Below the pieces are notes generated by a model that worked only from the letters and a program-made list of their open reading frames with translations, had not been told where the DNA came from and made no database searches. From Dehalococcoidia bacterium (GTDB lineage Bacteria; Chloroflexota; Dehalococcoidia; SHXV01), in the NCBI GenBank assembly GCA_009693105.1, contig SHXV01000008.1:1-42455 (forward strand): 42,455 bases of DNA, written 5' to 3'. Each line of letters begins with the position of its first letter. Positions within the stretch are counted from its first letter, which is position 1. This document shows positions 27,566-31,273 of the stretch, one piece after another. Made by a program: the position numbers and the translations under genes.

Positions 27566-27958
27566 ATGCCGAAACCGACACTGCAGGCCGGCCTGACCGC
27601 GGAGCAAACGTTCACCGTCACGGCGGGGATGGGCACGCCCCACCTGGCGAACCCCGTGCTGGCCACGCCGTTCATGATCCAGATGATGGAAAGCACCTGC
27701 CGCGAGCTGCTCACCGCGCACATGGAGGAAGGGGAGGAGTCCGTCGGCTTTCACGTCGATGTCCACCACTACGCGCCGGTGAAGATCGGCGAGCAGGTGC
27801 TGACGAAGGTGACGCTGCGCGAGTTCCGCGACGGGCGCAAAGCGTTCTTCGATGTCGCCGTCTACCACGAAGGCGGCACGAAGATCGGCGAGGGCACGCA
27901 CGAGCGCCGGATCATCCGGGTGGACCGCTTCAGCCAAAGCGCCGCCGGCCGCGGCTGA
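27566..27958 (+). CDS. Hotdog-fold thioesterase (FlK-like)
   Basis: This 130-aa protein has the hotdog pattern of the fluoroacetyl-CoA-thioesterase-like group: 'LATPFMIQMMESTCRELL', 'ESVGFHVDVHHYAPVKIGEQV', 'LREFRDGRKAFFDVAVYHEGG.KIGEGTHERRII'. The Glu in 'MMESTC' and the His in 'VDVHHYAP' are likely active-site residues. It should hydrolyse an acyl-CoA, perhaps as a clearing enzyme; the true substrate is unknown. No ribosome site is visible before the ATG, in line with a leaderless transcript. It converges with the deazaflavin-type gene (9-nt gap). Confidence 0.88.
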   Translation: MPKPTLQAGLTAEQTFTVTAGMGTPHLANPVLATPFMIQMMESTCRELLTAHMEEGEESVGFHVDVHHYAPVKIGEQVLTKVTLREFRDGRKAFFDVAVYHEGGTKIGEGTHERRIIRVDRFSQSAAGRG

Positions 27959-27967
27959 CCGCCGCTG

Positions 27968-28345
27968 CTAGCGCCCGTCCTCTAGCCGCACGCGCACAAG
28001 GGGGCTGCGCGCGATCCAGTCCTCCAGGTCGTCCTTGAACTGCGTCCAGCGTTCGCCGAGCTGGCTGGTGAAGAAGGCGCGCCGCTCCGTCACGTCCGTG
28101 ATCGGCGTCGCCGTCGCCGGGATGTCGCGCTGCAAACTCTGCTTCAGGTGGAAGGTGAAGCGCGGGTCGGCGCGCATGTTGGCGAACCAGTTCCGCCGCC
28201 GGTCCGGCGTGGCCGTGATGTACAAACCGTCGCCCTCAAGAATGAATGCGATCTCGATCCTGCGCGGCTGGCCGCTCTTGCGCCCCGTCGTCGTGATGTC
28301 GATGAGCGTGTCCTTGCTCAGCGCTGTCCGAACCGCGTCATCCAT
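27968..28345 (-). CDS. Deazaflavin (F420)-dependent nitroreductase-family protein
   Basis: This 125-aa protein matches the DDN/FDOR split-barrel family: 'DITTTGRKSGQPRRIEIAFILEGDGLYITATP', then 'RRNWFANMRADPRFTFHL'. The 'TTGRKSG..R..' motif is the typical cofactor-binding start. Family members use F420 (or flavin) to reduce quinones or nitro compounds; F420 use by this organism is an inference. ATG 28345 has AGGGGG 7 nt upstream and overlaps the rnhA stop by 8 nt. It is the last gene of the zinc ribbon-recombinase-RNase H operon. Confidence 0.88.
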   Translation of the reverse strand: MDDAVRTALSKDTLIDITTTGRKSGQPRRIEIAFILEGDGLYITATPDRRRNWFANMRADPRFTFHLKQSLQRDIPATATPITDVTERRAFFTSQLGERWTQFKDDLEDWIARSPLVRVRLEDGR

Positions 28346-29063
28346 TCCGATCCCCCTGTTCAACCGGCTCCATGTGCTTCTCGATCAGTTCCTGAGCGGT
28401 CTCGTTTCGGGACTCGATCCACCACTTCGCCGACGCTTCGGCACGAAGCGCTGCCACCGCCCGCTCAACATCGGCGCGAACCTGAACCGGATACTGACTC
28501 CGGATTGCCTCTGCCGCGGACAGCTTTTCACCGCGAATGCGACCCGCCCAGACGACCTGTTTGGGGCTGCCTTTGAGTCGAGGGGAGCCGCCCGATGACG
28601 AGACCGATGCGGCCGGCACGACAAGCACGGCGTCGCCCTCCCCCTCGAACGGCTGCCCGTCCAGCGCCGCATTGGCCAGCGCATCCGCCTCCCGGTTCAG
28701 CTCGCGCCGGACGTGGCGAACGGAGAACCGCCCGAACTGGCGCGTCAGCGCCCCCAGCGCCTGGAAGTGGGGGAGCAGGGCGGCGTTGCGCACGCGGTAG
28801 CGCCCCTCCAGCTGCCGTACAATCAGTTCCGAGTCCATGCGCAGCTCAACCTCCGCAGCCCCCAGGGAGAGCGCCGCCTCCAGTCCGGCCAGCGCCGCCC
28901 GGTATTCTGCCTGGTTGTTCGTGGCGTGGCCGATGGCCCGCCCGATCCGATAGCACACCGCGCCCGCCGGGTCCCGCACCACGCAGCCGATGGCCGCCAG
29001 GCCGGGGTTGCCCCGAGAGGCGCCATCGCTCTGCACCACCCACGTCGCATCGCCCGTCGTCAT
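28338..29063 (-). CDS. rnhA: RNase HI-like protein with C-terminal extension
   Basis: This 241-aa protein has the RNase HI catalytic quartet: Asp13 ('QSDGASRGNPG'), Glu53 ('NNQAEYRAAL'), Asp77 ('RMDSELIVRQ') and Asp127 ('READALANAAL'). It cleaves RNA in RNA-DNA hybrids. The core ends near residue 135; a further ~105 residues contain a Ser/Gly linker and an 'AEAIRSQYPVQVRADVERAVAALRAEASAKWW' helix that I do not recognise. The ATG overlaps the recombinase TGA as ATGA, so the two are translationally coupled. A second RNase H (type HII) is at 15923-16630. Confidence 0.92.
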   Translation of the reverse strand: MTTGDATWVVQSDGASRGNPGLAAIGCVVRDPAGAVCYRIGRAIGHATNNQAEYRAALAGLEAALSLGAAEVELRMDSELIVRQLEGRYRVRNAALLPHFQALGALTRQFGRFSVRHVRRELNREADALANAALDGQPFEGEGDAVLVVPAASVSSSGGSPRLKGSPKQVVWAGRIRGEKLSAAEAIRSQYPVQVRADVERAVAALRAEASAKWWIESRNETAQELIEKHMEPVEQGDRNG

Positions 29064-30490
29064 GGCCGCAGGTGGACGTGGATAGCGTCGTCGTCCACGA
29101 CAACCCGGTCGATAAGGGAGCGGAATAGCGCCTGCTTCCGATCGTCCTCCAGGGAACCCCAGCGCGTCTTCACGTCGTCCAACGCCCGGTTGCGCAACTG
29201 CTCCCGCTCCTCGTTCCCCTCCTGGCGGCGGACGCGCATCTCCACTTCCACCAACTCATCCTCCAACGCCATGCGCTCCCGGGCCAGCGCCGCGGAATCG
29301 CGCCGAAGCCGCTCCTTCGTCATCCGCCCCTGCACCGTCTGGTCAAGGAGCGCTCCGATCCGCCGGTCAAACTGAACCAGCCGCCCTCGAAGCTGCCCCG
29401 CCGCCTCCTCCGCCTCTGCCCTCACCGCCTGCTCGTTGCCGGCGCGCAGAACGGGCCGCGCCGCCCGATCCTCGTTCAGGACCTGGCAGACCTCCACTTC
29501 CAGATCGTCCGCCCGCCGGGTATGGTAGGCGCACATACTCTGGTTGGTGCGGCTCTCACATTGGTAGTAGCGGTATTCCGCCGTCATCTCCATCCCACTG
29601 CTGCGCCGCTTCCAGTGCTGGCGGCGGCTCACCCCGATCATCCGGTTGCCGCAGGCCCCGCAATAGGCCAGGCCGGAGAGGAGAAACGGCTTCCGCGGCG
29701 CCCGCTCTTCCCCCTCCGCCATGGGGCGCGCCGTGCGCCGGGCGCTCAGCCGATCCTGCACCAGCCGGAAGTCATCCGGCGAAACCAGCGCCGGGTGACT
29801 CCCCGGCACCCGCACCCCAAAGCGATTGTAGGTGCCAAGGTAGGCGCGGTTGCGCAGGATGTCCCGAATGGACACCATGCTCCAGTTGCCCCCGCGGCGC
29901 GTCTTCAGCCCTTCTTCGTTCAGCCGCCGGGAAATGAGGCGCACACCGATTCCTTCGTGCAGGTAGAGACGGTAAATGAAGCGAACGATGGTCGCCTCTT
30001 CCGGCACCAGTTCCAGCCGGCGCTTGGGCCCGACGGCATAGCCGTATGGCGGGCGACCCAGCACCTCCCCACCCACCGCCTTGCGCCGCATGGCGGCGCG
30101 CACGCGTTCCCCCACCTCCCCGCGGCGGCCATCGCCGGTCCACGCGTGCAACAGGTCCGCCAGCCCATCGCCCCCCTGGCTGACAACAACCTGCGTGCCC
30201 AGGCTCTCGATCTCGAAGAAGGAGCGCGCCGCCTCCCGCATATTCTCCCCCAGCCGATCGACGGCGCTCACGGCGACGACGACGAAGCCCTTTTCCGGTT
30301 GGCGCAGGTAAGACAGCATCTGGCGAAAGCCGGTACGGGAATCGCCGGAGGTGGCGGTATCGAGGAAAGTCGCCGCCGGTTCATACCCCTCTCTGCGGCA
30401 GAACTCCAGGAACGTCTCATTCTGGCGGGAAAGCGAATCGCCCTCAGCCCGCTCATGGGAGAACTCACGGAAGTAGCCAACCGCACGCAC
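29060..30490 (-). CDS. Large serine recombinase-family protein, atypical active site
   Basis: This 476-aa protein has the large-serine-recombinase order: resolvase domain (about 1-150), recombinase domain ('GRPPYGYAVG', 'LNEEGLKTRRGGNWSMVSIRDILRNRAYLG', about 150-270), a zinc ribbon ('LAYCGACGNRM'...'YYQCESRTNQSMCAY', about 290-345) and a long coiled coil (about 370-450). The active site is odd. Arg8 is present, but position 10, the nucleophile in the usual Y-x-R-x-S, is Phe and the serine comes one residue later (YFREFS). The DRLGR motif reads DRLGEN, so one catalytic arginine is Glu82. No att sites, cargo or other mobile genes surround it. GTG 30490 follows the zinc-ribbon stop by 11 nt; the TGA overlaps rnhA. 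Confidence 0.88.
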   Translation of the reverse strand: MRAVGYFREFSHERAEGDSLSRQNETFLEFCRREGYEPAATFLDTATSGDSRTGFRQMLSYLRQPEKGFVVVAVSAVDRLGENMREAARSFFEIESLGTQVVVSQGGDGLADLLHAWTGDGRRGEVGERVRAAMRRKAVGGEVLGRPPYGYAVGPKRRLELVPEEATIVRFIYRLYLHEGIGVRLISRRLNEEGLKTRRGGNWSMVSIRDILRNRAYLGTYNRFGVRVPGSHPALVSPDDFRLVQDRLSARRTARPMAEGEERAPRKPFLLSGLAYCGACGNRMIGVSRRQHWKRRSSGMEMTAEYRYYQCESRTNQSMCAYHTRRADDLEVEVCQVLNEDRAARPVLRAGNEQAVRAEAEEAAGQLRGRLVQFDRRIGALLDQTVQGRMTKERLRRDSAALARERMALEDELVEVEMRVRRQEGNEEREQLRNRALDDVKTRWGSLEDDRKQALFRSLIDRVVVDDDAIHVHLRP

Positions 30491-30501
30491 GCGCCCGCCC
30501 C

Positions 30502-31203
30502 CTAACCGCCCGCCAGAAAGCGTTCACAGCTGGGGCAGCGCGCCACCGCTGTTGCTGAGCGGGCCTGGGAAGCGACGCCCCCCGGGAGGTTGACCCGGCA
30601 GCCACCGCAGGCGCCGCGTTCGATGTGGACCACCGCCCGGCCCCGTCTGCGGCGGCGCAGGTCCTCGTACACGGCCAGGACATCGGCGGCGATCCGCCCC
30701 ACGGCATCGCGATGCTTCGCCTCCAGCTCCCCGATAGCGCGCTCCACGACCGTGCGCCGCTCCTCCAGCTGGGCGACCTCCGCCTGACGCTGCTCTCGCG
30801 CTTCCTGCGAGCGGGCACGCGCGGCAACGTGGGCGCCCGCCACATCCTCAACTTGCGTCATCACGGCGAGCAGCGTCTCCTCACGGGTACGGAGCTGCTT
30901 CTGCAGATTCGCCACCTCCTGCTGCAGCGTGGTCAGCTCGCGGGAGCTGACCACGCTGCCATCGTAGAGCCGGCGCTCCTCCGCCTGCAGCTTGGAGCGC
31001 ACCTCCTCCGCGCGGGTCTCCGCCTCCCGTTGGACGGAGTCCAGGTCACGCAGGTGCGATTCGCTGGTCTGGAGCGCCACCCGCGCTTCGTAGTAGGCGC
31101 CCTGATCGGCCAGGCGCATGTCCAGGTGGCGGAGCGTTGCGCGCTGCTCATCAAGCGATGTATCGAGCTCTTGCAGAACAGCGAGGTCAGCGATAGTAGG
31201 CAT
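30502..31203 (-). CDS. Coiled-coil C4 zinc-ribbon protein (DUF164/CT398-like)
   Basis: This 233-aa protein has a long N-terminal antiparallel coiled coil (about residues 1-175, rich in Glu, Arg, Gln and Leu) and a C-terminal zinc ribbon with 'CGGC' and 'CPSC' pairs. This is the layout of the CT398/HP0958/DUF164 family, whose members bind nucleic acid or act as adaptors (HP0958 links an RNA and RpoN/flagellar parts). The usual cofactor of this copy is unknown. ATG 31203 has no strong ribosome site. It heads the four-gene minus-strand operon with the recombinase, RNase HI and deazaflavin-type gene. Confidence 0.9.
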   Translation of the reverse strand: MPTIADLAVLQELDTSLDEQRATLRHLDMRLADQGAYYEARVALQTSESHLRDLDSVQREAETRAEEVRSKLQAEERRLYDGSVVSSRELTTLQQEVANLQKQLRTREETLLAVMTQVEDVAGAHVAARARSQEAREQRQAEVAQLEERRTVVERAIGELEAKHRDAVGRIAADVLAVYEDLRRRRRGRAVVHIERGACGGCRVNLPGGVASQARSATAVARCPSCERFLAGG

Positions 31204-31243: not shown

Positions 31244-31273
31244 AGTATAGGCCCGCCCCAGGGGGCCCGGCAA
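31244..31273 (-). promoter_or_regulatory. Predicted promoter of the zinc ribbon-recombinase-rnhA operon
   Basis: On the minus strand TTGCCG (31273-31268) and TATACT (31249-31244) are 18 bp apart; the predicted start is near 31237, 35 nt before the ATG. Confidence 0.6.

Follow-up and report, generated by a model that had tools for sequence, protein, structure and literature searches.

The question raised by this locus is what an integrase gene with an altered active site is doing in a row of housekeeping genes. The window analysed here, a 42,455-nucleotide stretch of a Dehalococcoidia contig, carries at positions 29060–30490 of the minus strand an open reading frame of 476 codons that starts with GTG and runs without a frameshift. 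On the basis of sequence, Pfam matches, alignment and tree, its product is classified as a putatively catalytically dead large serine recombinase (LSR), referred to below as the pseudo-integrase. Its N-terminus, MRAVGYFREFS, provides Y6, R8, F10 and S11, and the VDRLGEN motif provides D78, R79, L80, G81 and E82. In the numbering of γδ resolvase, S10 is replaced by F and R71 by E, with R8, R45, D67 and R68 retained. The initial annotation had read a serine at position 11 instead of 10 and Glu82 in place of an arginine, and the translation bears this out.

The features that mark an LSR by descent, a resolvase-fold N-terminal domain (NTD), a Recombinase domain (RD) and a Zn_ribbon_recom domain, are all present, as Pfam matches at residues 3–107 (E 3e-13), 163–251 (E 3e-20) and 270–337 (E 1e-10), respectively. 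We delimit the NTD, with its eroded catalytic residues (S10 to F and R71 to E, R8, R45 and R68 being left), as residues 1–115 (30146–30490, minus strand, as are all features of this gene). The RD, the DNA-binding domain and the most conserved part of the family, comprises residues 146–250 (29741–30055) and includes the recognition-helix region WSMVSIRDILRN (residues 203–214, 29849–29884), in which contacts were mapped through alignment to A118 integrase (PMC3783163). It is followed by the zinc-ribbon DNA-binding domain with Cys277, Cys280, Cys311 and Cys320 (residues 268–335, 29486–29689) and by predicted coiled-coil helices, which show the lowest sequence conservation (residues 350–446, 29153–29443). 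The AlphaFold2 model of the protein has a mean pLDDT of 88.5, its PDB fold matches are LSR–DNA complexes, and both indicate that the resolvase fold of the N-domain is otherwise kept. The initial description of the remaining domains as intact was nearly right; the exception is the αE region. The segment between β4 and the RD, which holds αE, has about 53 residues in the family versus 59 in 16 of 19 ordinary LSRs, i.e., it is some 6 residues shorter, and the model predicts a break at residues 121–126, where pLDDT falls below 50.

To judge the active site we used an alignment of 124 family members and 19 ordinary LSRs of the same class, in which R8, S10, R45, R68 and R71 were scored. All five residues are present in 18 of the 19 controls, the remaining one having a trimmed start. 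In the family, none of the five is kept in 47 members, one in 51, two in 24 and three in 2, the window protein being one of the latter two. Thus the set Ser10 plus Arg8, Arg45, Arg68 and Arg71 that characterises a functional LSR is incomplete in every aligned member, none of the 124 keeping more than three of the five. Pfam analysis of 50 members detected the Resolvase domain in only 26, and the Recombinase and Zn_ribbon_recom domains in all 50.

The serine at position 11 had been taken for a displaced nucleophile. At position 10 most homologues have G, T or A, and at position 11 most have A, P or K; the S11/E82 pattern is not conserved among the 124 aligned sequences, and we therefore reject S11 as a new nucleophile and ascribe it to drift. 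Judged from the aligned residues, S11/E82 is a single genome's version of a class-wide erosion. A still-active recombinase, working through the shifted S11 or through a partner's active site, would be in keeping with R8, R45, D67 and R68 of the window member and with its serine just one position off. However, serine occurs sporadically in the family at position 10 (9 of 124) or 11 (7 of 124), R68 and R71 are kept together in only 2 members, and the shorter αE region with its predicted break also speaks against activity. Nor was a partner detected: in the host assembly (1.23 Mb, 83.6% complete) the window protein is the sole resolvase-domain protein found.

Attachment sites were sought as exact repeats of at least 14 bases lying more than 300 bp apart between 24.0 and 36.0 kb of the window. 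Just four pairs, of 14–15 bp, were retrieved, and the only pair that spans the pseudo-integrase gene (26220/32181) lies within two housekeeping genes; therefore, no repeat resembles att sites, in agreement with the initial annotation. Neither att-like repeats nor a mobile context, as expected for a functional LSR, are seen in the window, and the housekeeping synteny of the locus is class-wide. Taken with the residues, this makes continued recombination highly improbable.

A profile search detected the family in 137 of 294 genomes of the class, always as a single copy (genomes at least 85% complete, scores above 200 bits, one background integrase at 204 bits excluded). The gene is missing from about half of the genomes of the class, and it is therefore not universally needed. 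A search of related genomes retrieved two kinds of matches, namely close orthologues, with 31–56% identity and a single copy in any one genome, and ordinary integrases. Named family matches come from Dehalococcoidia and other Chloroflexota metagenome-assembled genomes, several Tepidiforma and the isolate Tepidiforma flava; Tepidiforma forms its own class, Tepidiformia, at NCBI and is grouped with the window's class in the genome set used here. Among 301 genomes sampled across the phylum, no genome from outside the class rose clear of the integrase background; the best matches there reached 233 bits and have intact active sites wherever the N-domain is readable. The family is monophyletic with respect to 24 other integrases (support 100/99). 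Its pairwise distances correlate with those of neighbouring genes (yceD 0.92, nusB 0.91, tatC 0.91 and fabD 0.87), a level reached in none of 200 permutations; the correlation with DUF164 is 0.80. We conclude that the Chloroflexota class Dehalococcoidia holds a monophyletic, vertically inherited, single-copy family of pseudo-integrases.

The loss of active-site residues and the absence of cargo genes could also be expected of a decaying integrase left behind by a prophage or integrative element, i.e., of a pseudogene in progress. The class-wide synteny, a divergence that tracks housekeeping genes, the open frames with purifying selection in every domain, and DNA-reading residues fixed across deep divergence all argue against decay. 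A prophage remnant is rejected on account of synteny, selection and distance correlation, and we consider this reading the least credible of those weighed here.

Selection was estimated from pooled pairwise values over 17 close pairs, which gave dN/dS of 0.17 for the NTD, 0.076 for the RD, 0.082 for the zinc ribbon and 0.19 for the coiled coil. All domains of the pseudo-integrase are under purifying selection (dN/dS 0.08–0.19). The column conservation (sum of squared residue frequencies) of the family compared with that of LSRs is 0.33 versus 0.58 in the NTD, 0.59 versus 0.44 in the RD and 0.58 versus 0.46 in the zinc ribbon; the LSR panel is mostly one related group, so its true variability is, if anything, underestimated. 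Read from these alignments, the family reverses the conservation profile of active enzymes, with a drifting catalytic domain and a nearly fixed RD and zinc ribbon. The N-domain does have conserved residues of its own, F7, C31 and G81.

In the structure of A118 integrase with DNA, bases are contacted by the recognition helix αH, the linker between the RD and the zinc-ribbon domain, and the zinc-ribbon β-hairpin (PMC3783163). The stretches of the pseudo-integrase that align with these contacts are almost fixed in the family, while most of the positions vary among LSRs. In the recognition helix, S204, V206, R209 (118 of 124 members) and D210 (107) are nearly fixed in the family and variable in LSRs. 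The zinc ribbon shows the same near-fixation in the family at R289 (123), Y306 (118), R307 (114), Q310 (111), R314 (113) and N316 (115), as well as at Y322 and T324; Q291 (104) and W293 (114) lie at a hairpin tip that is missing from the panel LSRs. Such a pattern would be expected of a protein whose DNA target is single and unchanging, binding itself being predicted from it. In two loci of one genus (g21; L015 and L016) the zinc cysteines are lost, with C280 shifted or replaced, C311 changed to S and C320 to G, and most of the DNA-contacting hairpin is retained.

The gene directly upstream of the pseudo-integrase in the window (30502–31203, minus strand) encodes a DUF164, or CT398-like, protein with a coiled coil and a C4 zinc ribbon (CT398_CC and Zn_ribbon_9) and is its operon partner. 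Its stop is separated from the pseudo-integrase start by 11 nt (30491–30501). A candidate -10 element of the operon promoter, TATACT, is found at 31244–31249 (minus strand), and promoter-like elements occur at the same stretch in relatives. On the other side, the ATG (29063–29061) of an RNase HI-like gene, rnhA (RVT_3; 28338–29063, minus strand), overlaps the pseudo-integrase TGA (29062–29060) to form ATGA. Both junctions are as first annotated. Further along, the FlK family of fluoroacetyl-CoA thioesterases is matched by a gene at 27566–27958 (plus strand), which adjoins one for an F420H2-dependent quinone reductase-like protein (27968–28363, minus strand).

The neighbourhood was compared in 81 loci (80 named loci and the window): the pseudo-integrase lies directly 3′ of DUF164 in 78 of them, usually after a gap of 2–5 nt, but adjoins rnhA in just 43, so that rnhA is a frequent, not an obligate, neighbour. 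The DUF164 junction is kept in most of the very divergent family members. The usual surroundings are genes that we take, by recognition, to be yceD, fabD, fabG, nusB, tatA and tatC, divergent upstream, and murE and birA downstream; the window has pyrG as upstream neighbour instead. In the f2 family (L137, L138, L149, L150, L153 and L158), the pseudo-integrase is kept beside yceD and murE at a locus without DUF164 and rnhA. In one clade (L103, L104, L108, L111, L095 and L100), a tRNA-Met gene lies directly upstream of the DUF164/pseudo-integrase operon.

From a set of 89 genomes, 15 class genomes without the pseudo-integrase have DUF164 and rnhA directly adjacent, and the pseudo-integrase therefore occupies the DUF164–rnhA junction. 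In one genome (G044, L191:1775-3402) this junction carries a gene for an AAA_21 (AbiEii-like) ATPase and a second unnamed gene, which suggests that it tolerates insertions.

The initial annotation had proposed binding to DNA or hybrids. A module for RNA:DNA hybrids or R-loops together with RNase HI would fit with the ATGA overlap in the window and the 43 loci with adjacent rnhA. Yet 38 of the 81 loci have no adjacent rnhA, many genomes with the pseudo-integrase have no RVT_3 match at all, and the f2 lineage keeps the gene without either neighbour. The R-loop idea is weak, since rnhA adjoins in so few loci compared with DUF164; given that DUF164 and rnhA adjoin even without the pseudo-integrase, its co-transcription with rnhA seems to be a feature of the inherited locus. 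We regard such a module as quite unlikely.

A target site for the pseudo-integrase was sought, and not found, at its own operon and in sampled genome stretches. No class-wide operator was found upstream of DUF164; conserved elements there are clade-specific and promoter-like, and therefore are not assigned to the pseudo-integrase. Apart from these there is CCATAAC-N10-CGTRAYGATT (27–28 bp), an element that the f34 clade carries in the yceD–DUF164 interval (G059:C1:354999-355026, for example) and that occurs in exactly one copy per genome in 7 of the 11 genomes searched; restricted to one family, it is likewise not assigned to the pseudo-integrase and is a possible operator. In a search for dispersed sites in two genomes (G059 and G303, 0.8 Mb of each), no 8–10-mer was strongly over-represented in both. 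The second of these contains a dyad, GCTGTG-N17-CACAGC (stretches L234-L273), in 28 copies in 0.8 Mb versus 0.04 expected, which is probably a repeat family.

The lack of a shared dispersed k-mer in the two sampled genomes counts against a pure chromosome-architecture protein with many binding sites, an unlikely reading for which the DNA-binding head, the coiled coil and weak SMC-like coiled-coil matches can be cited. A second alternative is that the dead integrase keeps active elements from integrating by sitting on an attB-like site that is conserved: it is a dead recombinase with an intact DNA-reading head, and active-type LSRs do occur in other genomes of the class. Such a guardian would nevertheless be retained here although no other serine recombinase was detected in the genome, and its near-invariant specificity across the whole class is unlike arms-race evolution. 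PADLOC, run with two members, gave no match, on which grounds a defence-system reading is rejected, and we hold a guardian role to be very unlikely.

The explanation we favour, and judge fairly probable from the sequence evidence, is that the pseudo-integrase is a domesticated, catalytically dead integrase that acts as a sequence-specific DNA-binding protein with a transcriptional or local architectural role. The initial annotation had proposed a domesticated recombinase without full recombination chemistry; this is now strongly supported, at the level of the class rather than of one protein, because the catalytic residues are lost in all parts of a family that is monophyletic, single-copy and syntenic and evolves under purifying selection. 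In the scheme we envisage, a phage-type LSR gene would have arrived at the DUF164–rnhA junction in an ancestor of much of Dehalococcoidia, the direction of gain being assumed. Cleavage chemistry would then have been lost, as the residues indicate, DNA specificity would, as is strongly suggested, have become frozen, and the gene would have become a vertically inherited single-copy one. The present protein would bind one conserved DNA sequence through the RD and zinc ribbon without cutting it, acting either as a transcription factor beside a sigma- or RNAP-associated DUF164 protein or as a local architectural protein, and its coiled coil and resolvase-fold N-domain (F7, C31 and G81) may serve protein contacts rather than catalysis.

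The DUF164 homologues CT398 and HP0958 bind RpoN, Wcw_1456, a CT398 homologue, binds RpoD, and CT398 is found in complex with RpoN and core RNAP (PMC5947703, PMC6426960). Given these contacts with sigma factors and RNAP, the most economical assumption is a transcriptional role. The bolder form of the proposal, in which much of the class uses a dead phage integrase as a core regulator that reads a single conserved DNA sequence and works with the sigma-associated DUF164 protein, is tentative and in our view somewhat doubtful. That partnership is suggested by the shared operon only, and in the f2 clade the gene persists in the absence of DUF164.

None of Pfam, NCBIfam, PHROGs and PADLOC has a model specific to the family, and no description of it was found in the open-access literature searched, which covered few subscription journals or preprints. 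To domain libraries these proteins are just recombinases or phage integrases. The gene may therefore easily be mistaken for a marker of mobile elements and dropped from core-genome work, even though its inheritance in Dehalococcoidia resembles that of nusB or tatC. By its sequence, it is probably an ordinary but unrecognised DNA-binding protein. We see in it a clear case of an LSR domesticated through loss of catalysis while its DNA specificity froze and, if this is true, a route from mobile-element integrase to transcription or nucleoid factor. Which DNA it reads, and with which partner, is a tractable question in a class where few regulators have been characterised. Studies of DNA recognition by integrases could also draw on the family as a set of RD and zinc-ribbon domains that presumably share one fixed target.

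Among known systems, the pseudo-integrase is closest in architecture to the phage LSRs (A118/LI, SPbeta, Bxb1 and phiC31; PHROG 95, matched at E 2e-84), with which it shares the order NTD, RD and zinc ribbon with a coiled coil. It differs from them in lacking the catalytic residues, att sites and a mobile context, in its shorter αE region, and in being single-copy, syntenic and vertically inherited. The XisF/SpoIVCA type is likewise an LSR kept by its host, and XisF is the best NCBIfam match (NF041201; 84 bits, far under the cut-off of 375). Those recombinases excise elements and require an intact active site, which the pseudo-integrase family does not have. The operon partner belongs with the DUF164 proteins (CT398, HP0958/FlgZ, MSMEG_4306 and Wcw_1456), from which the pseudo-integrase itself differs in fold. 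Finally, Tn3/γδ resolvase is also a serine recombinase that affects transcription through site binding for which cleavage is not needed: it represses by binding res and is catalytically active as well. It binds with a small HTH, whereas the pseudo-integrase has an RD and a zinc ribbon.
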